Assembly: GCF_026210795.1 (NCBI RefSeq)
Contig: NC_089437.1
Span: forward strand, 4,836,001 to 4,900,000
Reading direction: 5' to 3'
Length of the DNA stretch: 64,000 bases
Source of the DNA: Rhizophagus irregularis
Lineage: Eukaryota > Glomeromycota > Glomeromycetes > Glomerales > Glomeraceae
Under the pieces are notes generated by a model. It worked only from the letters and a program-made list of their open reading frames with translations, was not told where the DNA came from and did no database searches. This document shows positions 42,783 through 64,000 of the stretch, one piece after another (positions within the stretch are counted from its first letter, which is position 1; each line of letters opens with the position of its first letter). A program made the position numbers and the translations under genes.

Positions 42783-44199
42783 TAGTAAGGTTTAGTATTA
42801 AATTAAATAACGCATTATGTTAATACATTGTTAATATTAATAATATATTTAGCTGTTAGTGTTAAATATAAATATTATAAATTTAATAATATTTGTGATT
42901 TTTATAAATAAATAAAAATGCTATATTATCCAGTATTTTTTTTGTATTTTAGTACAATACCTATATTATTTAATATAATTCCAGTATAATGCAAAATTTT
43001 CTAAAAAAATATGATAATTGTGATATTTTAATGTAATATTACATTGTCCAGTGTAATTGTAGTATTTTTTAATACAATGCTATATAATCTAATGTAATGC
43101 TACATTTTCAGTATAATTTAATGTAATGTAAAATTTTCCAAAAATGTGATAATTGTGATAGTTTTTAGTGTAATTTAGTGAAATGCTATATTTTTCAAAA
43201 TAAAACTATATTATCAAGTATTTTTTTTTAAAAAAATGTAATATTTTAACATTTTGATAAAAATGAAATATTTGACAAAATTTAATATTAATTAAAAAAA
43301 AAGTAAAATTTGATTTTAATTGACAATATTATAACAATATTGTAAAATATTACAATGATATTATATTGGTAAAAAAATGTAATATTTTTCCAAATTTTCA
43401 TAAAATTTAAACAATATTGTAACAATGTTATTCTACAATTTTCCATTATTTTTCAGAAAAATGTGGAATTTGAATTTTTTAAAATTTGGATGATAATACC
43501 TTTTCAACCTGTAAGTTGCATGGCATTTTGAACAATACTCTTATAAAAATCTTTATTTTTTACTTTTATTATATTAATAATTTTTGCAATTTGAAGTAAG
43601 TTTATCTTTGATTGGTTTTCTTACTTTTCTAACAGTATGTATGTCTATCAAAGCTAAATATTTGGAATTTTAACTTATCATATCAAACTATCTTACTTCA
43701 GTTTTTATAATTCAATTCTTAAATCTAGTAAAATTAAATCTTTTTTTATAATGTTTATTTTTTTGAATAAAAGAGGTTTTTTACATTTTGCTTTAGTAGC
43801 AAAATTATTTTTCTTAACACTATATATAGTATAATCTCAGTAATGACTTTAATATCTTCATTAATTTTATAATTTATACAAATTTTATTAATGGAATAGC
43901 AGTTGTATAATTTTCTGTCAATAAGCTTTTTATAATAGTATGTTCATTACATTTATTTAACTTGGGTAGTCAACTTGAATACTGTTTATCTTTAATATTA
44001 CCAGTTTTTTCATATTTCTTTTTAAGTCTTAGTATTATTATATAACTTTCATAGCCAATTTTGGTGGCAAATTCTCTTGAAGTAAAGTTACGCTTAATTA
44101 TTATAATTGCCTATGTTTTTTATTTTATAGTAAGTCTGATTTTTAGTTTATAAATAAAAAATTTATAATTTTGAAAAGTATTTATAAGTATATTATACA
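42783..44199. other. AT-rich DNA with degenerate repeats
   Basis: 42930-43250 contains several diverged tandem copies of a unit like AATGCTACATTTTCCAGTAT followed by AATTTAATGT. No coding potential anywhere in the interval. Confidence 0.45.
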
Positions 44200-44363
44200 T
44201 GCCGCCCAAATTATTTTGGGATGCCATAATTATAATTTGGATGCCGTAATTCATTCAGTTTATATACAATTTACTATGTAAAGTGCCAAAATAATTTGGG
44301 ATGCTATAATTGAATTTGGGATTTTACTTATAATTATGGCAGCCCAAAATAATTTGGGTGGCA
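44200..44363. mobile_element. Short TIR element, about 164 bp
   Basis: The left end, TGCCGCCCAAATTATTTTGG then GATGCCATAATTATAA, and the right end are reverse complements over about 38 bp with one or two mismatches. The centre holds a third partial copy (GCCAAAATAATTTGGGATGC). Flanks are AT-rich and the target duplication is unclear (possibly AT). Non-coding. Confidence 0.75.
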
Positions 44364-44789
44364 TATATAAAGTATATAAGTATTTTTATTAGTATTACAT
44401 TATCATTAATTATAAAAAAAATATTTTTTCTAAAAAAAATTTTTCTTAATAAAAATGAACAAAAGTAACATATCATGATTTAAGAGTACAGTTAAATCTC
44501 TATATACTGATATAGATATTTTTAAAAAAAAATATTGGTATATTAAAATATCAATACGTTATAAAAATTTATATACCGATATTAATAATAAAATGTAGAT
44601 ATATAAAATTTATATAAAATTACAATGTATTTTAAATTATTTAATAAAGTGATTTTATTTAAGTCAAATTCTAATAAAATACTTTGAAAAAATATTAATA
44701 TATTATTTAGTATATTTATTATATTAACATATTAGTGCATATAATATAAAACTATATTAAAGAATTTGAACAAAATTATCTAATGTAGT

Positions 44790-45463
44790 TTACTTTGAGT
44801 TATTAATATGTAATTTTAATACTTGATGCCTTAACTTCTGCAATACATTTAATTCATTTAGGTTAATACAAATATCTGATAAATGTTTAAAAAATAAAAC
44901 AAAATTATCTAAATAACCTAAAACTTTTGTTTCAAAAATTACTACTGGAGGCTCTTCATCTGAATCTATTTCTGATTCATTATTATTATTTGGCTTTATT
45001 ATAGATATAATTTCATTATCAGTTAACCCTTTGTTACTTTTTAAACAATCATCAATATGAAGAAATTCATTTGCATCCATAAGATTATCAAATGGTAGTT
45101 TGTTAATTAAATCTTGTAATTTCATTTCATCATGTAATGCTTGATCTTCAATTTTATCAATTTTGTTTATTTCATTTATTGGTAGAATTCCTGTATATTT
45201 CCAACAATTATTAATAATGGTTTATTAACTTACAGAATTCTAAGCATTCATACTGAAATTAATAAAATCATAAATAATTATAGAAGTAAGCTCTTTATTA
45301 AATTCTTGTGAAATTTCATATACTATTTCTAATAAGTAATTTCCAGTATTATGTCTAAATTACTAAGAGTTTATCATAAATCAAATTAAACTTCATAAAA
45401 AATTACTATTGCAAATTAATATTAAAAATTACTAACTTTACAGAAATTAATGATCTCTGCATC
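44790..45463 (-). pseudogene. Tigger transposase, C-terminal segment
   Basis: Reads from 45463 down to a stop at 44790. Visible: EIINFCK directly at the insertion junction, EFNKELTSIIIYDFIN, NSVS preceded by a TAG where the family has Trp, TIINNCWKYTGILP, then the acidic tail MKLQDLINKLPF, EFLHIDDCL, LTDNEIISII, DEEPPVVIFE and a final leucine-rich helix. This order (AW..V....I..CW...G, then acidic LT..EI) is the normal end of pogo/Tigger transposases. The upper boundary is the 8-bp target duplication of the MITE at 45464-57869. Confidence 0.85.
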
Positions 45464-45780
45464 AGGATCCTGCTTACTTATAAGATAGGTCACCAGAAAC
45501 TTAAGATAAAATTTATAATCAAGAATTTTTAAAGATCTTACTACAGTCAACTCCCTCTATAGTCACTCCCGTTATAGTCACATTCTACTATATAGTCACA
45601 CCAGTTGAATGTTCAAAACACTTTATTATTAAAATCTATCCTATATAGTCACAATCTATCTATAGTCACTATCACACCTATCCTCAAAAATCTTATATTA
45701 AAAAGAACCGTTTATAATCACAGTTATATAAAGAATATATTAAATAACTTGGCATCTAATAATCGTACAAAGATGTATCA

Positions 45781-46430
45781 TAGCTTGTTAGAATCGTCTC
45801 ATTGAGACGAATCGAATGGTAGTAGTTTTATCCTTTTCCGTGCAAACAGTCTTTTGACTTTATCTTTTATTTATATTTTGAACTTCGGAGATATAGCGAA
45901 CAATATTAAGTAGTTTTATCCTTTTCCGATTACTGGCTGACGAGTTATTCAACAAAATGTTAAACATCGGCATTATAATATTTCTTGATTTACGTTTACT
46001 GCGCCATTTAACATTTTGCTAGATTTCTCGGTACTTAGGTATTGTAAAAAGATGATTTATAGCTCGTTGGAATCGCCTCATCGAGACGAATCGAATGGTG
46101 GTAAGCTCATCTCTCTGTGATCAATATTGACGGAGTTATTACTTAAAAACCATTTAATATTTTTTAATTTCAGAAATTGATCTAGTGATTGGATTTCGAT
46201 GTATCTTATACCATTAGATTCGTCTCATCAAGACGAATCAAATGGAGTAAAATCGTCTTTCTAGGATCAATATTGGCAGAGTTATTACATAAAAACCATT
46301 AATATTTTTTTAATTTCGGAAATTAATCTAGTGATTGTATTTCGACGTATTTTATACCATTAGAACCGTCTCATCAAGACGAATTGAATGGCGGTAAGAT
46401 CATCTCTCTACGATTTATATTGGTGAAGTT
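45781..46430. repeat. Four copies of a unit with an ATTCGTCT-AGACGAAT dyad
   Basis: The core TTCGTCTCATCAAGACGAAT, followed by GAATGG, occurs near 45793, 46068, 46213 and 46365. The last three lie in a unit of about 145-150 bp that also contains ATCATCTCTCTRYGATCAAT and TTGRCGGAGTTATTAC. The core is a perfect 8-bp stem around CATCA in the third copy. These repeats make up most of the interior of the 45544-57716 element. Confidence 0.8.
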
Positions 46431-48108
46431 ACGATACAATATAGTTTTAAGTATAATTCTGGCTAAAATTATGTTAATTTTTGGCCGGAATTATGATATA
46501 CAAATATAAGAAATTTTTTATATAGTCACATCTCTTTATAATCACCAAATATGAGGATCATCGCAACTCTTTCCTGAATTTTTGAAAATACTAATAAAAT
46601 TTATTTTTGAAATTTTCGTTCGAAAATTTCTAAGTGCTCGTTCAGAATACTAATAATTTCCCAGTTGCTTTCCTCTTTACTGAGCTTTAAACTATGACTA
46701 CACCTCCAGCTCCTTCTGTTATTAACCCGGATATTTTATCGCCACCGCGTCCTGTTGTTTCTACTCCCTCTGGAGACCGACCTTTATCTCCCACTAGTAC
46801 CGCTGGCGCACCTAATAAACGTACACGTACTATCTCTGATGACGCGATGAATGTTGATATAACTTCGCCCTCTGCTCCTGCTCCCAACCTTATTTCCACC
46901 GTTCCTTCTGGTCTTCCTGTCAACAAAGTCCACGTGATTACATCTCCTCAAAATATTACCACTCCTGTTGAAACTGTTGACGCTTCTATCCATGCTCCCT
47001 CTAACACCAGTGGTAAAGGCAAAGCCGTCGCCTTTGATATCCCAGAACGACGACCATCTCCCCTGATGGAAATGCTGCTGCTATCAAATCCGCACCTTCT
47101 CGTTATCATGCTGCGGCCTACCTACGCGACGCACCTGACGCGTTCAAAGCTAAATTCACCACCAATCGCTCCATGTGTGACGAAGTGGATTGTTCACTCT
47201 CCCGTTATTCTTCTTATGGCGCTCGCGCACGATGCGATGGATCAGGCGATAACAAGAAAATCCTTGTCTTCTTCAATAATCATGATGATTTTACCGATTG
47301 TGTCAACTCTCCACGTGCCGATCTCCTCGATTTGGCCTTCAGTCATTACTCCCTTGCAGACGCCAAGCTCAGTGATGAAATGAAGTCTTTGTTCGTCACT
47401 GATATCCCACTTTTCCTAACTGAGACTCAAGTCCGTCAGGCATTTTCCCGATATGGCACTGTAATCAAGTGCAAACTTACTCCTAGGAAACATTATCATA
47501 ATGGACATATCCAGTTTTCCTCCGCAGATGCTGTTACCCAATTTAATGATATTTGGACGATCATTTACCTTGGTAATTCTTTGTGTGTCTGCCCGGCATC
47601 CTTTTCGAAATCCCAACGCGATAGCTGCAGAGAACATGTTGCTATCCTCGCTGGCATCCCAAAGAATATTAAAGAAGCTGACCTGTTGGAAATTGCTACT
47701 CAAGTTAACGCTAAAGCCCTTAACGTTCCTCTTTCTATTAGTTCATACAAGCCTAAACCCTATGTATATTTGAATTTCTCCTCATTCGAATCTCTTGAAG
47801 CTGCCAAAGAAATGACCGTGGCTTTCCGCGGCAAAGGATTAACATGGCACCCTCCCAATGAAGCACAAACTCTATCTGCCACGTTTGCGGACGTCCCACC
47901 TGGTTGTTCTTCCTCCGTATATGTAATCCCCGTCTGGACACTACGGAAAGTGGATGATTGCCTTAATAAACTTTATTCTCGCTTCAATGCTGGCCCTAGA
48001 CGTGGTCGTCAGGATTCGCGCCAATCACGTGAAAATTCTAATTCCCGTTCAAGATCGCGCTCCAATTCTAGATCCCGCAATAATAATTCCTCTTCATCCC
48101 GTTCTGAC

Positions 48109-51100
48109 CAGTGTTGGCATTGGACTCATTCCAATTGATTTAATTGGACGATTTGGACAATTGGACAATTGGATATAGACCAATTGCGTCCAATTGTCCA
48201 ATTGGTCCAATACACATTTGTTGGATTTGGACCATGACCAATTCATCCAATTAGGCAATTGGACGTACAATTGGACTTGGTCCAATTCATCGTCCAATCA
48301 AATTTTCGTAACACATAATGATAATTGATAAATCGTCAAACCTGAATTTCCGATAATCTTTTTTTTTAATTGCGATATTAAAAATGACGCGCGAAAAACA
48401 TAAACTTAGTGGATATTTTTTAATGTTAGAAGAAAAGTCCAATAAATATAATAATTATGCAGTTTGTCAAGAATGTGTTAGGGGTTTGGATCGAGAGGAA
48501 GCGATGAAACAGAGGTTTACAAATACAAAACGTGCATGTGCAAAGCATCTTGAAAATTGTCCTTATTGGGCTGAAAGACACTCTTCGGAAGAGACTCAAG
48601 CTATAATTCAGAAAGCTATGGAGTATGGTTCGAAAAAACCAATTAAACGACAATGATTATCAATAGATAATGACTTTGATGAGGGTAAAACTGAAGTATT
48701 AACACCGCTATCAAGCACATCAACACCTTCCCAAGGTTCTTCTAATTTGAACAATTTTTTTTATAAATCATCACGTGCAAACAGCATAAGTAGCATATCA
48801 GATATTTCATTTCGAAGCTTTGGTCCCCTTGATAACTATATGTATCATGAATTGAAGCCAGAACAAATAGAAACATTTGAATGTTTACTATTAGATGTTA
48901 CTGTAGCTTGTGGTTTTGCTTTTTCATTGGGTTGATAATCCAGCAGTTAAAGAGCTCTTTAAATGGCTTAATCCAATGTTAGAGTTACCAGATCGTAAGC
49001 AGCTTAGCGGCAGAATTCTTAAAAAAGCATCCAATAACCTTAAAGATATTGTTCTTAATGATGCTATTAATGATGATCTTGGGATTATGCTAGCTTTTGA
49101 TGGTTGGAAAAATGTTTCTCGTCAAAATTTATTAGGGTCCGTTTTATTTACTTCAGAATGCAATATGATTATATGGAAAGTTGAGGATATCGGTGGAAAA
49201 AGATGTACTAGTGATATTATAATAGATGAAACGAAAAAATCATTTGATGAGCTTGAAAAAAAGAATATTAAAATTAATGGATTAATTACGGACTCTGCTT
49301 CAGAAAATGTTGCTGCAAGGTAATCAATAATAATTATTTTTAATTTTAGGTTTATAAAATTATTTAAAATTATTTATTAATTTTATTGATTTAGAAAACG
49401 ATTGCGCCTCCAATACCGGGACAAGATATTTTTGCCGTGCTTTGCGCACCAGATGAATTTGTGTATTGGAGATATATTTAAAGAGTCATCAAGTCTGAGT
49501 GATGCTGCTGAAGGGGCTATTAGTTTAATTACTTTTTTCAGTCGGTCAAAAGTATGGCTTGGACGACTTCAAAATGAGCAAGCAGCTATTTACAAAGTTC
49601 ATATTGCATTAGTAACCTCAGCTACTACTCGATGGAACTCATACTATTACTGTTTTGCTAGTTTATTAAAAACAAAAGGGGCTTTACGTGTATGTATTAT
49701 GCAATAAAAATTTTGGGTTGATCTTTGTTTTTACTTTTTAATTAAACAATTTTATTTTTTTTAGAATCTTGCAACGAAAATAGATGAAAAAATTATTTCT
49801 GATGGCTATGATTTTCCCGAAAAACATTTACAATGCATTTTAGATAATAATTGGTAGATTTCTATTAAAAAAATTGAAACCTTTTTAATTTCATATTGTG
49901 CAACACTTAATAAACTTCAACGACAAAATTCACGATTGCACGAAGTTCTTCACGGATTTGGTAATGTAGTTATGACACTTAAAACATTTGAAGATCAAGA
50001 ATTAGCCACTACTCTTCTTTCAAAAATTGAGCGACGATGGAGAGATTGGGAACAGCCTTTCTTGTTACTATCATTTTTGCTACATCCATTTTATCGTGAT
50101 ACAAAATTTAATCCTGCATTAAATTTATCATTTCCTCACCTAGCAAAATGGGTTTTATATTATTATTGTGCATGGTTTAAGGAGGAACCAACAGTTTTAC
50201 TAGCTGAACTTGAAGAATATAGATCAAAAAAATATCCTTATACTGATTCTATTTCTAAGCAATTTAAAAATAATATTTTAGATTATTGGAATTTTACAAA
50301 AGGTTACTCAAAAGAATTGTATAGGGTTGCTCAACGAATTTTTTCAATTACTGTATCAACAGCTTCATTGGAACGATTGTTTTCAACAATGGGATGGTAT
50401 CACTCAAAACGGAGGAATCGATTAAAGGTACAACATATTAGCATATTTATTTATATAATTTAACTACAAAGTTTTTTGCAATGTTTTTTTTGGTATTTTA
50501 GGCGGAAAAAGTGTTAAGTTTAGCCCAGATTCGTGCAAGTATGCAAAGACAACAACAGCTTTACGAGTTAGATTATCATGCAAAACAATATCAAACAACT
50601 ATAACAAGAACTTCAGATAATATAGAATTTGCAAGATTAGAAAATGATGATGAAATTTTCATTCTATAATAATGAAGGTTCTGATACTGATAGTGAAACA
50701 AATGAATATGATAATGAAAGTATAAATAATATTTATACACAACCATTAGCATCTGCTAACGAATGGAGAAAAACAGTAATGGATTGGATAGAAATGATTG
50801 AAAATGAATTACAGGACCAAGATAATGAATTAGCAAGCATTACTGATACATATGATATTTCTATTGAAAATATTGAGCAGATACAACATCCTGCTATTGA
50901 TCCGCAAGCAAAATGGGAATTAAAAAATATTTTTATAGAAAATTTAGAGTTACCAGGTTACTTAGAAGATTTTATTATTGGTAAAGCTTAATAAATAAAT
51001 TTAATAAATTTGCAAATTTCGAACTTTAATAAATCATGTAAAATTTATGATGTCATTTGCTAAAATTATTTTTATTGGTTAATAATTTCAGTTGGAATTG

Positions 51101-51206
51101 GACTGAGTCCAATTGACCAATTGTTTATTTGGACTAATTGGTGCAAGTCCAATAAGTCCAATGTCCAATTGGTCCAATTGTCCAATAAGTCCAATTGCCA
51201 ACACTG
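48109..51206 (+). mobile_element. hAT transposon with BED-finger transposase, 3098 bp
   Basis: Ends are CAGTGTTGGCATTGGACT and, on the right, its partner ending GTCCAATTGCCAACACTG. Both sides carry GTTCTGAC (48101-48108 and 51207-51214), a perfect 8-bp target duplication that removes cleanly to restore ORF1. Both sub-terminal regions (48120-48300 and 51095-51200) are packed with CCAATTG / CAATTGG motifs in both orientations, likely transposase binding sites. It is the innermost and so the youngest layer of the central stack. Confidence 0.95.
48384..50991 (+). pseudogene. hAT transposase (BED finger, DUF659, C-terminal dimerisation)
   Basis: The ATG at 48384 opens a BED zinc finger (CQEC...KHLENC, about residues 28-58). 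An in-frame TGA at 48654 interrupts it, and the same frame runs on to 48935. After a one-base shift in a T-run, 48910-49323 holds the DUF659/RNase H-like core (LAFDGWKNVSRQNL, INGLITDSASENV). Introns at about 49321-49394, 49690-49764 and 50429-50501 have normal GT...AG ends. The last large exon has a TAG at 49855, then the hAT signature TASLERLFSTMGWYHSKRRN (about 50360-50425). A final acidic tail is joined only through another frameshift near 50660. Three to four lesions make it inactive, but the damage is light. Confidence 0.9.
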
Positions 51207-51931
51207 GTTCTGACAACAGCAACTATAATACTAACACTTCTCGTCCCAATATTTCTCGCAGTAACAATCGGACTAACAATAATACTAATACTAATAATCA
51301 CAGGAACAATGGTTATTCTTCCAGTTCTACTCAACCTCCACATAACCCTCATTCTGCCAATTCTACACCACCTACTTCTCCATCTGACAGTCCTGCCCAT
51401 ACACTTCCTCAACATATTATTGATGATTTAAAGGCGCAGATCAAAGAGATCGCTAACACCCTACATACTCTAGAGGAAACTGTCTCTTAAATGAATGATA
51501 CTATCACGTCCCATGAGTATAGGATATCTGAGCTTGAATCACAGATGAACTATGACAACCCTGGTGACTCTGATTTGTATCCGCCTCGTGATGACCATGA
51601 AAATCGAAATCATTCTTATGATTATGGATGGGATGATGCCCCATCCCAAGACACGAATGCTGGATTCAATCTTCCCCCCATACTACTCCTTCTCTTATGG
51701 ACACTTCTCCTGATGCCTTCTTCTCAGCTCTGGATCCTAACTCCGTCTTATCACGCAGACATGTCCCATTACCTAACTTCCGCCCTGCTATCAATTCCTC
51801 TGATGCTACTACTTTCCGTCTACAATCGGAAATTTCTAATATCACTAATGTACAAAAGAATCTTTCTACCCAACTTAGTTCGATTATGGAAAAATTGGAC
51901 TCCTTCTCTCCCTCAAAACCCTCCCCTTCCA

Positions 51932-54900
51932 ATGATTGAACATCAATTTATATCGGATGCTTTACAGGGATCTCACCCCCCTGATAGTGCGCTACTTAAT
52001 AATAATAGTCCCAATTACTGTCCTTCCTTTTCCCCTCTTATTAATTTTGGACAAATCAATGTTAATGGTTTGTGCTCCCCTGTTCGTCAGTTGCATTTGT
52101 TAAATTATTTTTTCCATTCTTCTTTTGGCGTTTTATCTTTAAATGATACTCGTCTTATTTCTTCTAGTGCTAAATTTATTTATCAAACTGAACATTTCCA
52201 ACATAATTTTAAGTCCTATTGGGCTCCTTCTCCTTCTAATTCACGACCTCATGATGGTGTTGGTCTTTTACTTCGCCATCCTTTACATAAACATGTTCAG
52301 AAGATTGATCCTTGGAAAGGTCGTCTTTTAAAATTAGATCTTTTTTTTCACCAAACAAAAATTTCTATTATTTCTGTCTATATTCCTCCTTATCACTCTA
52401 TTCATTATAAAGAACGTGATGCTATTTTTGCACGACTTAATTTATGGCTTGATAATGCCCGTTCTAATAATTATCATGTAATCATCCTTGGTGATTTTAA
52501 TGCAGATGAAATTTCACATTCACATCTTCCTCGACATCATTTGAAAATTTTGCGATCACTTTCTTCTCGATATTTTACGGATCATCAATCCCATACCTCT
52601 TTAATTTCAGGTCCAAGTCCTACCTTCTATTATCAGAATGGTTCTTCAAGACTTGATTATATTTGGTCGTCCCCTGGATTTCCTGCTCCTGGTCTTTTCT
52701 CTCATGTTGAAACTTGCCCTAAGTTGAATGATAATCAATTCACTGATCACCATGTACTTATAACGGCCTTTGATTTTAGCTCTTGTTTCGCTACTCTAGC
52801 TAAAGCTAGATTAAAACAAAAAAGCGAACAACGCACCATTTTTCTCTACAAAAATATTAAAGAGGATTCTTGGGTGACATTTTCCAATGAAGTAAACTCA
52901 CGTCTTGAGTTGTATTTGGCCACACATTATCCCTCATTATCTTCACTTTCAGTTCTTTCTCTGGATAAACTTTGGCACGCTCTTAAACGCTCTATCCTTG
53001 GTGGTGCCATTGACTCTCTACCGTTTCAACATGTATCCAATACTCACCATCATAAATATCCTCCCGAGCTTACCATGCTTATTGCTATCAACAAGTTCTT
53101 GGATAGATTATTGTTTAAATTGACCATGTCTAGGCCTAGTCATCCTGCTCAAATTTCACAAATGATTAATTCTTTGCCTACGCAATTAACTCTTCTCAAA
53201 TCTCTTTTAAAAGATTATACTATACCTATTTATAATATAACACCACTTCCTGCTTTCATCAAATTTTTGTGTTCACAAAAAGCTTTGGTCTCAGCTTACC
53301 TTTCCACACAATTTCATCAATATCGTGTGGATTCCATAGAATACTATACTGCTCTCAGAGATGACCATTTCTCTACGTCTCTGGGCTCCTTTATTTCTTC
53401 AGCCCTATCAGTGGAACATCGGTCTATCGTTCTTGATAGAGTCTTGGTTGTTATTGACTCCAAACCCACTTTACTTACTGATCCTTCAAATATCAAGCAA
53501 GCTGCTATTAAACACTTCCAATCGGTTGTTACTCCTCCTTTGGTCCAGTATTCTTCTACGGATTCATTTCCTCCACGTTGGCAAAGAGCCTATACTCCTC
53601 TTTCTGATATTGATTCATCATTATACAACTCGGTCATGTCTCCTATTCTGTAAGATGAATGGACGAACACTCTCCATTCTATGCCTAATAACAAAGCCTC
53701 TGGTCCTTCCAAGATCTCTTATGAGATGCTCAAACATTTAACTGGCGAAGCTTTTAATTTGTCTCTTATTTTAGCTAATGCCTGTCTTGATCAAGGCGAT
53801 ATTCCTGTTGATTGGCGTGAAGCGCTTGTTTATCCCATTCCAAAGCCTCATGAATTTGATGCCCAATTAAAAAATACGCGGCCTATCACTTTGCTGGAAA
53901 CTGTACGGAAATGTGTGGTCAAGGTCGTTACAACTCGACTTTCAAAAATCCTAGCTGACAACCAAGTGCTTCAAGGTGGTAATTTCGCTGGATTACCAGG
54001 CGGTTTCACTGATATTCCTATAAAGATGCTTGATGCTATTATTCATCAACGACGCTTCGACAAAAGTGATGACCAAGAGTTATGGATTGTTTCTCAAGAC
54101 ATTTCTAAGGCCTTTGACTCAATTGATTTGAATATGCTTAAACTAGCTTTAATTCGCCTGCATATACCGTCTTTATTGATTAAATTTATCATTAACCTTT
54201 TTACAAGACGTAATAATAAAATTATTACCCACCATGGTGATACTTCTGGATATAGAGTTAGAATTGGTATTGACCAGGGTGAAATCATTTCTCCACTATT
54301 ATGGGTTATTTACTTGGATCCTTTACTTACCACACTTAATCGAGAAGCTTGTGATCCCTTTATTTTGAAATCTTCTGCATTATTGGATTATTCTCCATTT
54401 GAATATGAACAACACAATCTTCCTGTTTCACATATTACATTTATGGATTACTCTACTTTGATTGCTTCATCCAAACGAGAAATCGAAGATCGCCTTTCCA
54501 TTACTGCTGAATTTTATACTTTAAATAATACTCAAGCAAATTCAGCAAAATATATCCTTCTTTCTTCTGAACAATTTTCTCAAACTATTGTGTTTGATCT
54601 TTCCCCTTCTCCTTTAATTGCATCTCATACCCTTATTTTAAAGGCGTTAACCTTATCTATATCCTTTCATTTTTTAGGTGTTTGGTTTAATCTTTTGGCT
54701 TCTTCTCGTTTTGTTCACAACCAAACTGTTTCCATGGTCAAAGATATGGCTGCTTTACTTAGTCCTAAAAAACTTTTGGCACAACATGTGGCTTACCTTT
54801 ATAATATTGTTTTACTTCCGAGGCTAGAATTTCGCTTACAATCCACATTATTTGCTGAATCCACCATTAATCGTATGGTTTCTCCAATGCTTTCTCTTAT

Positions 54901-57115
54901 TCGACAAAAGGCTGGTTTGGCCTCAGTCACTCCTCTTTCCGCGCTTTTCACATTATTGCCGTTCTCTATTCAACAAGCATTTGGTCGATTTCTATCATCT
55001 CATGTGGCTTCATGGCAAAGAATTTTTTCTTACCCTTCATATAAGCTCTTTGCCAATTATATGATTACTTATCTCCAAGGTTTTTTGGACTGTGATGCCT
55101 GTCCTTCTATTATTGACCTGGAACCATAGTCCCATACCTTTTCCTTGCGAACACATTCTTTATTTAATTCTTTATTGTTCTCTTCTCGATTAAATATCAC
55201 ATGGTCTTTATTGTTCCGACCTCCGAGGAAAGATTTACGCCCGGCGATTCCACTCCGGTCTATTTTACCGAAACATTTATTTACTTCCATGAAAAATGTT
55301 CAGAAAAATTTCTGCACTCGTTATCTTGCTCAATTGACTACACCGTGTGGCTCTCGACTTCTCTCATGGAAGGATTTACGCTTCCTTAAACGAGTATCGA
55401 ACAAAGGATCTGTGCCTGCTTGGTTTACTTATTTATTTAATCTTATTGTTATTCCTACTTCTCCTTCTTTTTTTGTTTTATCGCAATTTAGAATTCCTAT
55501 TTCTCATACTGTAGCTTCTATTTCTTTTATAGATATTAGTCGAAATTATTGGTTTAACCCTCAATGGGCTATTTCTTTTAATCGTATTACTAACTCTTTC
55601 CTTATTGGCCGTGTGATTACTACCTATCCTGCTCCACGTAATGAAGCTCTTATTTCACACTGGATTGCGTCATCTGTTGATGATTTGCTTTCTGAATTTA
55701 CTGCATGCTAAGGTTGTGCCTCTGCTATTCCACGATCCTCTACTTCTAAGACTTTACTTAAACGATGTCCCTCTGAAGGATGCTTTTCTTATGTTCCGTT
55801 ATCAAGTTTGATCCATTATCCTACGAAACCTCGTACTTACATATATGCGAATACTCGCTCGGTTTCACTTTCTGCCTTGTTAGGCTATGCCAAATCTCTT
55901 TTATTATTTCATCTTTTTGCTCCGATTCGACTACCCCTTACGAATTACCAAGTGTCTAGGATTTCTGATATTCAACTTTCTTCCTCAGTGTCTACACTGT
56001 ATATTGATGGTTCCTTCCTTCCTCCTTCTAGTCATTCGATATCTTCGATGGCTTATGCATGGACTGCTATAGATCCTGATGGATTTATTTTGGAATCCTG
56101 TTATAATAACATTTCTTCCATTTTTCCTTCTGCTTTACGTTCAGAAATTTTTGCTTTATTGCACGGTTTGGACTCCCTCCCTCGGAATTCAAAGATTACT
56201 GTCGCCACTGATTGTGCCCAATTACTTTCTTTATGGTCTTTATATGTGGATGCTCCTTTTATTCCCAGAATGCTTAATGAATCCAACCACCTCTTGTGGT
56301 CCTCCATACGCACTATTATGTTGCAAAAGAATCTGGATGTTTCCTTGATCAAGGTTCCTGCTCACGCTGATGATCCTTTGAATAATTATGTGGATGCATT
56401 AGCCAAAGCCGCTTATAACGACTCATATCTTTCTTCTCGTCCATCATCGGAATTGCTGGCTCCTTGCATTTTACAATTTAATTTTTTACCTGTGAATATG
56501 AATATCCGGAAATTTATTAGAGATATTTTTGACGCTAAAAGTCTTTTAACTCTGGCAGTATTACCAAGATTTAATTCCTACTCTTCAGCTTATGATATCG
56601 ATTGGGCATGCACCAAATTTTGTCTCAATAACAATAAGCTATTCGTCTCTCATCGGAATGGTCGTTCTGAGTTTTGTGGTTTCTGTATCAAATTATTATT
56701 GGATATGCTTCCGACACTTACAACTCTTCAGAGACGAAAACCTCATCTTTATAATCCGAATTGGCTTTGTCCTCAATGTAACTCTTTTCCTGAGACTTTA
56801 GACCATTTGTGGACTTGTCCTTATATCTTACCGGAATTTAGCCCTTTAAATACTTTTAAAACATTGCTAATGACTCTTCGGACTAATTATCTTGATAAAT
56901 TTCTTTCCGCGACATCTTTAATACCTTTACCGGACTCTTTTGCTGCTGAATTTACAGCTTTTAACTGTTGGGATTGTGACCCTCTTTCAATTTCCTACCT
57001 GCGCTCGCATTTCGATACTTATACCGATATCCCTTACAGAATTTCTTGGAAATTATTTTTCTTCACTTACTATATGGTCTATTTTAGATACACCTTTGCA
57101 CGACTTTCATTTTGA
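51932..57115 (+). pseudogene. LINE ORF2: APE endonuclease, reverse transcriptase, RNase H, zinc knuckle
   Basis: One frame from ATG 51932 to the stop at 57113-57115 (1,728 codons), interrupted only by stops at 53651, 55127 and 55709. The ATG overlaps the ORF1 stop. Endonuclease: GQINVNGL, VYIPPYH, ILGDFNAD, SRLDYIW, FTDHHVLI. Reverse transcriptase: NNKASGPSKISYEML, RPITLLETVRK, SQDISKAFDSIDL, GIDQGEIISPLLW. The active-site box, normally F.DD, reads FMDYSTLIAS, so its second aspartate is lost (about 54441-54455). RNase H: LYIDGSF, LRSEIFALL, VATDCAQL, and the His-Asp end HADDPLNNYVDALAKAA. A C-terminal CCHC knuckle, CPQCNSFPETLDHLWTC, lies at about 56770-56820. With stops and a dead RT the copy cannot move by itself. 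Confidence 0.93.
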
Positions 57116-57662
57116 CCTTTATGTCCAAATCTGGTTGTGCCGTTCCATTTTCTTTCATCATTGGTAATCAGCTCAAGGCATTACAAAAAAAATGAAATCG
57201 TCAACTTTTGGGCCTTCTTCTACTTTTTGTCCTTCCTCTAACATTCCTCTTGACTCTTCGACACCTTCCTTGGCGACAGCTTCCTTGGATTCCTGGGTTT
57301 CTTGGGTTTCCTCTTATATAATCCGTAGGGGATCTTGAATTTCGCATTTGGATTTTTGGCGCCGCTTAACAGTTCAGCTTCTACTTAGGATTTCTTTTTG
57401 GTAACGGATTAGATCTTAGGACATGCTGGATAGTTGATTCACACTGGCCTTCAGGTAAAGATGGGGTATGCGTTTCTGTAATAGTTTAGTTTTTCTTCAC
57501 TTAATTTTATTTTGTTTAGATTTCTTTACTTGTATGAATCGTGAAGCTAGTTCTTTTTATTTTTTGTTTAATTTTCTATATTTTGTAATATTGTTCAATT
57601 TGTTCATTGTACTTTTCGTTTAAAATTCATAATAAAAGATAAAGTCATAAGACTGTTTGCTC
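57116..57662 (+). other. LINE 3-prime untranslated region
   Basis: Non-coding, with a short CTTGG/TTCC repeat near 57255-57315. Ends in ATAATAAAAGATAAAGTCAT followed by AAGACTGTTTGCTC, directly before the 16-bp target duplication; there is no poly(A) tail. Confidence 0.7.
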
Positions 57663-58075
57663 ATAATCACCAAATATGGACTGTCCCAAATGTGTGACTA
57701 TAAAGAGAGTTGACTGTATATATAGATAAATTACACCTAAAAAAGGAAATGTTACATTAAGTTGTTATGATTTTTTTTTTAAATCAATTAACCAATAGGA
57801 TCACTGGTAAAATTACTAGTAAATTTGAAATTTTTCCTGAAAACCTTTATTAGGAGTAAGTGAGGTCCTTCTGCATCACATAGCTGTAAATAAGATGTAG
57901 TATTTGGTGGCAAAAAATGAACTACTATATTTGTTAAATTAACATTTTCATTTATAATGTGTATGGAAGCATTGTCAACAAGTAAAAGAATATTGTAATT
58001 TTGTAATCTAATTTGCCTATCCAATTTTTTAAAATAATCATTCCAAATACTAACTTGCATTTATACAGTTGAATT

Positions 58076-59172
58076 AGGATCCCGAATAATACTAATATAA
58101 CTCACAAATGATCAGCATGCATTTACTATTAACACTACGCAACTTTTTTTTCATAGTAACGCTACGCAAATTCAAATCTTAATTCAAAAAAATTTTTGTT
58201 ACTAATATAATGCATTTCACATTTTTTCTATTAAAATATTAATAAGATCATGCAAACCTCTCCATTTTATGTTAAAATAGTGTGTTTCGCACTTTTTTCT
58301 ATTAAAATATTAATAAAATCATGCAAACCTCTCCATTTTATGTTAAAATAGTGTGTTTCGCACTTTTTTCTATTAAAATATTAATAAAATGGTGTGTTTC
58401 ACACTTTTTTCTATTAAAGTATTAATAAAATAGTGCAAAACTCACCATTTATTTGTAAAAATAGTGCGTTTTACACTTTTGTCTATTAAAGTATTAATAA
58501 AATGGTGCAAAACTCACCATTTATTTATTAAAATTGTGTGTTTTGCACTTTTTTCTATTAAAATATTAATGAAATGATGCGAAATTCACCATTTTTTGTT
58601 AAAGTAGTGCATTTCACATTTTTTTCTATTAAAAAATATTAAAATAATGTGAAATGCATTACTTTTTATTACTTTATATAATTAATTACTTATTGCAAAT
58701 TTCAGAAATATATTATGGATCCATCCTTAATGGTGTTGTGCAACTTAATTTTTATTTATTAATATCAATATTATACAATTGATTAACATATAATGGGTGT
58801 TACGATAACATGTAGTGTATGAATATCTATGTATGTAGGGTATGCAAAATTTCACACGCGTTCTATACAGATCTACATTGTTTATTACCAAATAAGGAAA
58901 GGCCTAGACTGTTCTATTCTGTACAATATATGGTCACGTAATACTTTTATATGTGATGTTTAACCATACCCTACATACATAGCCAACCATACACTACATG
59001 TTTACTATACTCTCACATATAATGCAATTTATAAACTTTACGCAAACATGATATGTGAGTTATCCCAAAATTGACCGATCTACGCAAACTCAATTTATGG
59101 GTTTAAAAAGTAATTTTATATAAACTCTACGCAAACCCGTTTGTGAGTTATATCAGTATTATTCAAGGTCCT
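58076..59172. mobile_element. 1.1-kb AGGAYC-family TIR element in the Tigger transposase
   Basis: Ends are AGGATCCCGAATAATACTAA (continuing TATAACTCACAAATG) and, reverse-complemented, AGGACCTTGAATAATACTGA (continuing TATAACTCACAAACG), about 31 of 35 identical. GTTGAATT flanks both sides (58068-58075 and 59173-59180), an 8-bp duplication as for hAT elements. Non-coding interior: a tandem array (58209-58660) and an inverted pair at 58808-58846 and 58963-59003 around TATGTAGGGTATG. The shorter relative at 14337-14643 shares the ends. Confidence 0.9.
58209..58660. repeat. Seven-copy tandem repeat of about 72 bp
   Basis: The unit contains GTGTGTTTCGCACTTTTTTC, TATTAAAATATTAATAAAAT and CTCYCCATTTTATGTTAAAA. 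Copies 2 and 3 are identical over nearly all their length; outer copies diverge. Each unit has a GTGNGTTTNNCAC-like dyad. Non-coding. Confidence 0.85.
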
Positions 59173-59681
59173 GTTGAATTCCAGTAATAGTTTACTGATA
59201 ATTCTTTTTTTTTCTTATTTAATACTTGCAGATTTTGGTATTTATGGATAAATAATGATTTTAATTTTTCAGTACCAGTAGCATTGCATGTAAGAAGTAG
59301 AGTAATTCATTTTTTAGATTTTTTTTTTCCTAAAAGAGATATATATATATATAAACCCTTATGCTAATGTTTTTGATGGTTAGATTCCAATACAATCTTA
59401 AAATAAACAAATCTTAAAATATAAAAAATAGGAGCTTTATTGGGAAAAATAATTTTACCTGTTTCATTACAGTTAAAAACATTATTTAAGTCATAATATT
59501 TAATAATTTCGTATAAAATATCTCTTTTTTCATCTAAGGTTTCTAATAGCGCACTTTTAGCTTTATTCTACTGACTTAATATATTCTTTTAAATTATGCT
59601 GTCTTTTATATTAATTCATCTATTAGAAAATAAAAATTTATTGATTTCAAATTACTGTGCAAAATATTTAGCCTTTTCATG

Positions 59682-60430
59682 TAGTGTTGTGATTCAGATG
59701 AATCTGTGATTTATCAATTTAATTCAAAATGATTTAAATATTCGTAATAAATCTATGAATTCATTTGTTACCTATTCAAATATTTGCTGAATGCATCTGG
59801 ATATACGGATAAATATTTTTCTAACATATTTTTTTCATAATTTTGGCCAGAATATTAAAATTACCATATTTAGTCTTTATATAACTATTGCTTTCTTTTT
59901 TTGGTAATACCCTTTCCACAAAAATTTTGATTTCTATTTTTAAGCATTATTAAACATGGAATATTATGTAATAATAATCACTAAAAAAAAAATTTTTACC
60001 ATTGATTACTTAATTCTAGCTGGAATTATGATTGATAGTTTATACGAATTATCTGAATGATTTGTTTTTCCTATCCAGATCTATTCGTAATCTGATTGAA
60101 ACCAGATAACTCAAATGAATTTTGAATTGGATAAATCTGCAAATTGACAGATTGACAGATCAACAGATCGCAATTAAGGTTGCTTGCTGAAACCTAGGGG
60201 TTTAGGCAAGATGGCGTTTTGCCGAAAAGCGAAATTCTGCTGAAACTATATTAAAGTTATATTAAAAAACTGGCGAAACTTTAGAGAAAGGCGAAACTGC
60301 TGAAACTTATTATAAATGCCAAAACTGCCGAAACTCTGCTGAAACTATAATAAATCTATAGTAAAATTTTGACGAAACTAATCGTAGGATTTTGAGGAGG
60401 TTTAGACAAGCAACCTTAATCGCAATACTA
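59682..60430. mobile_element. hAT-type MITE in the Tigger transposase, itself containing a MITE
   Basis: Ends are TAGTGTTGTGATTCAGATGA and, reverse-complemented, TAGTATTGCGATCTGTTGAT. TTTTCATG flanks both sides (59674-59681 and 60431-60438). Once removed, the transposase reads DILHE then KAKYFAQ, the expected Tc5-type HTH order. Sub-terminal inverted copies of TTTATC-AATT-AATTCAAAAT strengthen the pairing. About 500 bp without its own insertion; non-coding. Confidence 0.85.
60175..60418. mobile_element. 244-bp TIR element nested in the 59682-60430 MITE
   Basis: Ends are TAAGGTTGCTTGCTGAAACC and, reverse-complemented, TAAGGTTGCTTGTCTAAACC. A perfect 8-bp duplication ATCGCAAT lies at 60167-60174 and 60419-60426. 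The interior is built from repeats of GCCGAAACT / GCTGAAACTATA. Non-coding. Confidence 0.92.
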
Positions 60431-60720
60431 TTTTCATGTAAAATATCAGTGTTGATATTAAGTTCTACAGTAAATGCATTTATTACCCATAATGAAAGGG
60501 TTTCTTTTATTTGAAAAAAATAAACAGACTTCTCCTTCTGTTTATTTGCGTCTTCAAAGTCTGGATTTACAAGTAACTACTTTTCTTTTTTTTTAAAAAA
60601 AATATCTGAAATTGTATTTTACTTAACTATAAAATAGCAAGTTCCTTTTGAGTAGAGTGTAATATTTTCTGAGAATTTAAACAGAGTTAATGCTTTTGTG
60701 TATACAACTCTTTTATTTGA
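60431..60720 (-). pseudogene. Tigger transposase, N-terminal DNA-binding segment
   Basis: On the minus strand, near 60660-60630, TQKELAIL matches the conserved helix of the CENP-B/pogo N-terminal HTH (T..ELA). Further down, NPDFEDANKQKEKSV and KETLSLWVINAFTVEL followed by NINTDILHE match the second HTH (Tc5/CENP-B type, EE.L..WI..A). The segment ends exactly at the TTTTCATG duplication. Frames are broken between the two motifs and no start codon can be named. Confidence 0.75.
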
Positions 60721-61002
60721 TTGGAAGGTATCTTGAACAGATTTTCCTTTTCTTTGTTGTTAAAACATTATTATTAGTTAAAACATGACATGTTAAAACA
60801 AATAAAGCTAGTATATATGCTGGTGTAACTTGAAATATCAGTATATAGTACTATATATTATTTATTAAGGAACAAAGAAATTACATCAGTATATATTACA
60901 TCATGAAACAATATGTAATATTGGTATAATAAAAACAAAGGAAATTTATCAGTATATATCAATTATCAGTATATAAACTATTAGTATATCGAGGTTAGAC
61001 CA

Positions 61003-63707: not shown

Positions 63708-64000
63708 TTATAAAATAATACATTTCCCGCGTCTCCTACGTTTTTTCTGAATACGCGAAAATGCAAGTGCAGCACGGGTAGCTTGCTCAAACACTTCATT
63801 AATACCCTCATAAGCCTTTGATGAGCACTCCAAATATTTAACCGCATTTATCTGATTTGCAACTCTAAGCCCCTCTTCATAAGTTACCAGAGTTTGATGA
63901 ATTTTTTTCAATTCTTCAATAGCACTGATATCATGTCTCAGGTCTGCTTTGGTACCAATCAAAAGAACTGGTGGAAGTTCACTTTGTTGAAAATTTCCAT
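63708..64000 (-). CDS. Rho-family small GTPase, C-terminal end (partial)
   Basis: The frame runs from the window edge down to the stop at 63708 (97 codons visible, no intron). It contains the G4 motif GTKADLR and the G5 region YLECSSK. The tail EVFEQATRAALA is typical of Rho GTPases, followed by a polybasic stretch KKRRRRGK and the CaaX box CIIL. Leu in the last position favours geranylgeranylation, and the basic stretch favours the plasma membrane. The P-loop and switch regions, and the 13-residue Rho insert apart from its end, lie beyond position 64000. The family switches between GDP and GTP to control actin, polarity and cell wall synthesis; which member (Rho, Rac or Cdc42) cannot be decided here. 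Confidence 0.88.
   Translation of the reverse strand, partial: GNFQQSELPPVLLIGTKADLRHDISAIEELKKIHQTLVTYEEGLRVANQINAVKYLECSSKAYEGINEVFEQATRAALAFSRIQKKRRRRGKCIIL

Follow-up and report, generated by a model that had tools for sequence, protein, structure and literature searches.

In Xenopus laevis, the LINE Tx1L, which carries an APE-type endonuclease, inserts at a fixed site of the abundant DNA transposon Tx1D, and the R1-clade LINEs R1, TRAS and SART have rDNA and telomere repeats as their targets. According to the part of PMC4640811 available to us, most target-specific LINE families fall in the early-branched, Tx1 and R1 clades, and the accessible sections of PMC8869645 name other transposable elements among LINE targets and cite a paper on the Tx1L endonuclease. 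Among fungal LINEs, CNL1 shows a site preference and forms arrays near telomeres, and both CNL1 and MoTeR are described as related to R2 in the portion of PMC12810828 at hand. In Rhizophagus irregularis, a LINE R1 (PMC8647823) and a SINE together with several LINE groups (PMC11075540) have been reported in the parts of these papers open to us, and the families described below may already be catalogued in the supplements of the latter with their target unmentioned. The available parts of the Rhizophagus transposable element literature held no description of any LINE or SINE that has a MITE as its target.

Here a stretch of 64,000 nucleotides from R. irregularis (hereafter the window) was analysed and compared with the genome (146.7 Mb, 32 contigs). 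We are confident that the elements of this locus were truly inserted one into another in succession and that the core of the nest is targeted: in it, a LINE (LINE-A) is site-specific at an abundant MITE, a SINE-like element co-uses its site and a related LINE (LINE-B) occupies a second site.

Results

Composition of the nest

The first-pass annotation of this locus had described a stack of eight insertions. All eight are present (Table 1) and their target site duplications (TSDs) are identical base for base, which rules out chance duplications. A ninth event, missing from that description, is a 69-bp LINE tail lying in the MITE between two copies of the 19-bp TSD GTAGTTTTATCCTTTTCCG. Inverted ends were found on seven of the eight elements, the LINE being the exception. 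The outer element was assigned to the pogo/Tigger type on its TA TSD and on the HTH_Tnp_Tc5 and DDE_1 domains of an uninterrupted copy (L011), DDE_1 also being present in the window copy, and the element within LINE-A was assigned to hAT on its 8-bp TSD and hAT dimerisation domain. The five superfamilies of the earlier description were not borne out: Tigger and the TA-flanked element are alike in having a TA TSD and a CAGT-starting end (the other Tigger end starting TGGT), and AGGAYC tips are common to a pair of the 8-bp-TSD elements.

Table 1. Elements of the nest and their target site duplications, in window coordinates.
Feature	Position	Strand	TSD	Remarks
Outer pogo/Tigger-type DNA transposon	44489–61002	-	TA	~2.24 kb own sequence; minus-strand transposase
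Small 8-bp-TSD element, AGGAYC ends	45464–57869	.	TCTGCATC	~231 bp own sequence
TA-flanked MITE (landing pad)	45544–57716	.	TA	~961 bp own sequence
LINE-B tail, 5'-truncated, at MITE site 1	45841–45909	-	GTAGTTTTATCCTTTTCCG	69 bp; TSD at 45822–45840 and 45910–45928
LINE-A target duplication, left copy	46538–46553	+	ATAATCACCAAATATG	
LINE-A, site-specific LINE	46554–57662	+	ATAATCACCAAATATG, 16 bp	8003 bp own sequence without hAT
hAT within LINE-A	48109–51206	+	GTTCTGAC	3098 bp
LINE-A target duplication, right copy	57663–57678	+		followed by the final 38 bp of the MITE
AGGAYC-ended element in Tigger	58076–59172	.	GTTGAATT	minisatellite inside
Element in Tigger, hAT-like TAGTRTTG ends	59682–60430	.	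TTTTCATG	
Element inside the 59682 element	60175–60418	.	ATCGCAAT	244 bp; TAAGGTTGCTTG ends

Several repeats were seen within and around these elements. Both ends of the hAT (48109–48303 and 51086–51206) are dense in TCCAATTGG-type repeats in both orientations, which are perhaps transposase binding sites. The minisatellite of the 58076 element (58194–58637) has a unit of ~71 bp, and related copies elsewhere align to it in several overlapping registers, which suggests that its repeat number may be variable. In the MITE, GTCTCATTGAGACGAATCGAATGG blocks are repeated at 45741–46423, two of them within a 146-bp tandem. A palindromic element at 44139–44424 has 97-nt arms of 73% complementarity, with ~180-bp copies at 94% in L012 and L082, and the minus strand of 63760–64000 resembles, by eye, part of a Ras/Rho-type GTPase gene.

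Empty sites and order of insertion

Other copies of the host elements carry empty sites at the nested levels, and the nesting is therefore real. Tigger copies elsewhere in the genome (78–89% identity) lack the three first-level inserts, with one exception: the first site is uninterrupted in six of seven other copies, the seventh (L013) having ~900 bp of other DNA there, the second is empty in 7/7, and the third is empty in all six readable copies, L013 ending before it. Further inward, the TA element is missing from the other copies of the small 8-bp-TSD element (5/5), the LINE from most MITE copies (16/20), the hAT from the LINE copies (5/5) and the 60175 element from the copies of its 59682 host (3/3). 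A single long element is ruled out by the empty sites at every nested level examined. Together with the exact TSDs, these empty sites back successive insertion in the order originally claimed, in full along the main axis; the side insertions are ordered only relative to Tigger, plus 60175 after 59682, and the nesting yields a partial order only. The transposase motifs said to rejoin once the inserts are removed did so in part, CDA/EIIN and YYWNS/T being continuous in L011 and ILHE/KAKYFA being split there between two frames.

The closest other copy shares 89% identity with Tigger and 92% with the small element (best values 88–92%), 98% with the MITE (97–98% across its main part, among the best 40 of 1565 candidates), 96% with the LINE 3' end (among the best 40 of 349 candidates) and 99.4% over 2.5 kb with the hAT (L072). 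These identities broadly track the depth of nesting, from which only the LINE deviates slightly, and an insertion is not dated by identity of this kind.

LINE-A and its target

LINE-A, whose window copy is broken up by stop codons as well as by the hAT, has RRM_1, Exo_endo_phos, Exo_endo_phos_2, RVT_1 and RNase_H domains. Its reverse transcriptase (RT) shows similarity to R2 and LINE-1 ORF2 chains, and its endonuclease ORF gave no match to PDB sequences at 0.01. The combination of an RT and an APE-type endonuclease with a constant 3' end, a TSD and 5'-truncated copies identifies LINE-A as an APE-type non-LTR retrotransposon.

To read its junctions, 29 other copies (L030–L058, from the best 40 of 349 candidates) were fetched by 3'-UTR similarity alone; copies of the window itself were left out, as were alignments that did not reach the LINE end. 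In 29/29, the LINE-A tail runs directly into the target ATAATCA(C/A)(C/T)AAATA, beyond which lies a MITE end (13), another LINE (6), the SINE-like element (9) or a diverged SINE-like tail (L033); L031 and L056 each have a second tail outside the fetched match, which does not enter this count. The same target precedes all 12 other LINE 5' ends in the fetched loci, with a LINE tail (8), a SINE-like tail (3) or the MITE (1) upstream, and a regex search of these loci gave no LINE tail in the opposite orientation. The junctions place LINE-A at one base, 38 bp inside the MITE right end, in one orientation and with 15–17 bp of target duplicated. LINE-A is accordingly a target-specific LINE, its separate copies occupying one identical base of a repeated target in a single orientation; diverged relatives could be less specific.

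A nest made of random hits throughout, the 16-bp duplication of the LINE being an ordinary TSD, suits the non-LINE layers, where TSDs and empty sites are as expected, but it is contradicted by the same target sequence meeting every one of the 29 LINE tails. As a reading of the whole locus it is extremely improbable; it is refuted for the LINE layer and is retained provisionally for the rest of the nest. The reading of the stack as chance hits, with the five-superfamily clock that the first-pass annotation had offered, is likewise not supported, the LINE family using one fixed base of the MITE family.

Occupancy of the MITE site

Twenty other MITE copies were picked by similarity to the left of the target and their right ends were then read. 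The LINE-A site was empty in 16 and occupied in four, and the LINE 5' junctions of these four all differ: two have 1–2 extra bases, one is short of ~9 LINE-start bases and one (L096) starts in the 3' UTR. A genome-wide pattern scan (≤1 mismatch) gave 63 LINE-MITE junctions and 355 empty sites, with 0 matches for the reversed-pattern control. Both numbers count pattern matches and do not amount to a complete census, and the 63 junctions are of the LINE type only, the pattern being one base short of the SINE-like tail; on this basis the LINE occupies ~15% of such MITE sites. In the fetched loci, the flanks outside the MITE-end junctions (13 LINE and 6 SINE-like) are all different, giving 34 distinct outside flanks when the empty MITE copies are added.

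Recurrence of the same junctions in other copies had been named beforehand as the mark of a single long element, and the MITE-LINE junction does recur (63 times). The LINE family inserts at one fixed MITE base, and the MITE-LINE level therefore recurs genome-wide; it is still not one element, because the four occupied MITEs differ in their LINE 5' junction and most sites are empty. Identical MITE-LINE junctions at many places are also what would be left by a single LINE insertion into a MITE whose transposase then copied the MITE-LINE unit around. This composite transposition was rejected on the differing 5' ends, one of them truncated into the 3' UTR, and is rendered very unlikely as well by the presence of the 355 empty sites and by the target being followed by the LINE, the SINE-like element or the MITE end in an order that varies by copy.

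LINE-A also forms arrays. Among the 39 non-window matches listed, five pairs of 5' ends lie 7.9–8.0 kb apart, which equals one LINE length, and the array junctions sequenced read LINE tail, target, LINE head. The same 16 bp at these LINE-LINE junctions would fit a LINE that itself includes the 16 bp and multiplies mainly via recombination or unequal crossing-over between arrays, but empty MITEs carry the 16 bp once and without a LINE, solitary insertions sit in different MITEs with different outside flanks, and 5'-truncated copies exist, so that we give this account little credence and retain insertion at a fixed MITE site.

A SINE-like element at the same site

The junctions also place a second, non-coding element at the LINE-A target site. 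It is 1001 bp long, with a longest stop-free stretch of 61 aa, carries an exact pol III B box (GGTTCGATTCC) at 69 and 466, varies in its 5' truncations and occurs in tandem with itself (L041 and L042). No tRNA was called in it by ARAGORN at default settings and no Rfam match was obtained; eight weak calls at a relaxed ARAGORN threshold were not counted. Comparison with the window, which contains LINE-A, gave no similarity at E 1e-5, so that the element and LINE-A have no tail in common. A tail shared with a partner LINE was thus not found, LINE-A being the LINE compared, and the element is therefore named SINE-like and not classed as a SINE. Judging from its pol III-type boxes, this 1-kb element is probably a SINE, and a third LINE carrying its tail is possible. 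At a single locus (L053, 540–640), the SINE-like head adjoins MITE site 1, the second address described below, which suggests that the element may be able to use both MITE addresses.

LINE-B at a second MITE site

The 69-bp piece within the MITE resembles a LINE end. In L031, a tail of this type is preceded by at least 1 kb of DNA, the last part of which is 74% identical to LINE-A (555 columns), and LINE-B is used here as the name for this LINE-A relative at MITE site 1. Both MITE halves were found in 26 other copies among the matches listed (best 40 of 1565). Site 1 is uninterrupted in 20/26, where the two halves overlap by 17–19 bp, corresponding to the duplication; by coordinates only, four carry the same tail with 210–483 further bases and two are interrupted by different DNA (147 and 341 bases). 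LINE-B uses a second MITE site, on the opposite strand to LINE-A, as seen in the window and in L031 and, by coordinates only, in four more copies. The sites of LINE-A, the SINE-like element and LINE-B all lie in one MITE, which makes this MITE a landing pad that several retroelements share.

Discussion

The features observed at the LINE-A site, namely a fixed target, one orientation, a 15–17 bp duplication, variable 5' ends and a constant 3' end, would most likely reflect target-primed reverse transcription, in which the APE-type endonuclease of LINE-A would select the site and nick its bottom strand at the left edge of the 16 bp. Since insertion duplicates the target, each new copy would recreate it and further copies could stack head to tail, and the arrays observed here presumably grew in this way. 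The SINE-like element may be mobilised by borrowed LINE machinery. The MITE would spread by its own transposition and so carry fresh targets through the genome.

On balance, we favour a broader reading in which one MITE family serves as a mobile landing pad for a guild of retroelements, with two related LINE lineages at two addresses and a SINE at one of them, probably at both, the LINEs having left fixed targets of the rDNA or telomere kind for a target that multiplies itself. A LINE confined to landing in another transposon shows how an element can multiply while sparing genes, and how its fate comes to depend on the transposon that hosts it. LINE-A and LINE-B, with different addresses in one MITE, form a natural pair for finding the residues that set target choice, and with ~63 occupied sites and 355 empty ones, targeting can be measured between isolates. 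The locus also carries a caution for the dating of nests: where one layer is targeted, the depth of a nest does not equal the number of random events that occurred independently.

The nest as such is ordinary, and LINEs aimed at other transposons are already known in kind; it is the targeted layer that departs from the ordinary. Among fungal LINEs, CNL1 and MoTeR have site preference in common with LINE-A but are R2-related, with a telomeric target in the case of MoTeR, whereas LINE-A has an APE-type endonuclease domain. The R1-clade LINEs R1, TRAS and SART are like LINE-A in combining an APE-type endonuclease with a strict target, and differ from it in what that target is, here a MITE. Tx1L resembles LINE-A both in its APE-type endonuclease and in its fixed site within an abundant DNA transposon. 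To our knowledge, however, RNase H is absent from elements of the Tx1/L1 group, whereas LINE-A has an RNase H domain, and, unlike the Tx1L case, two sites of one MITE serve two related LINEs here, with a SINE-like element co-using one of them.
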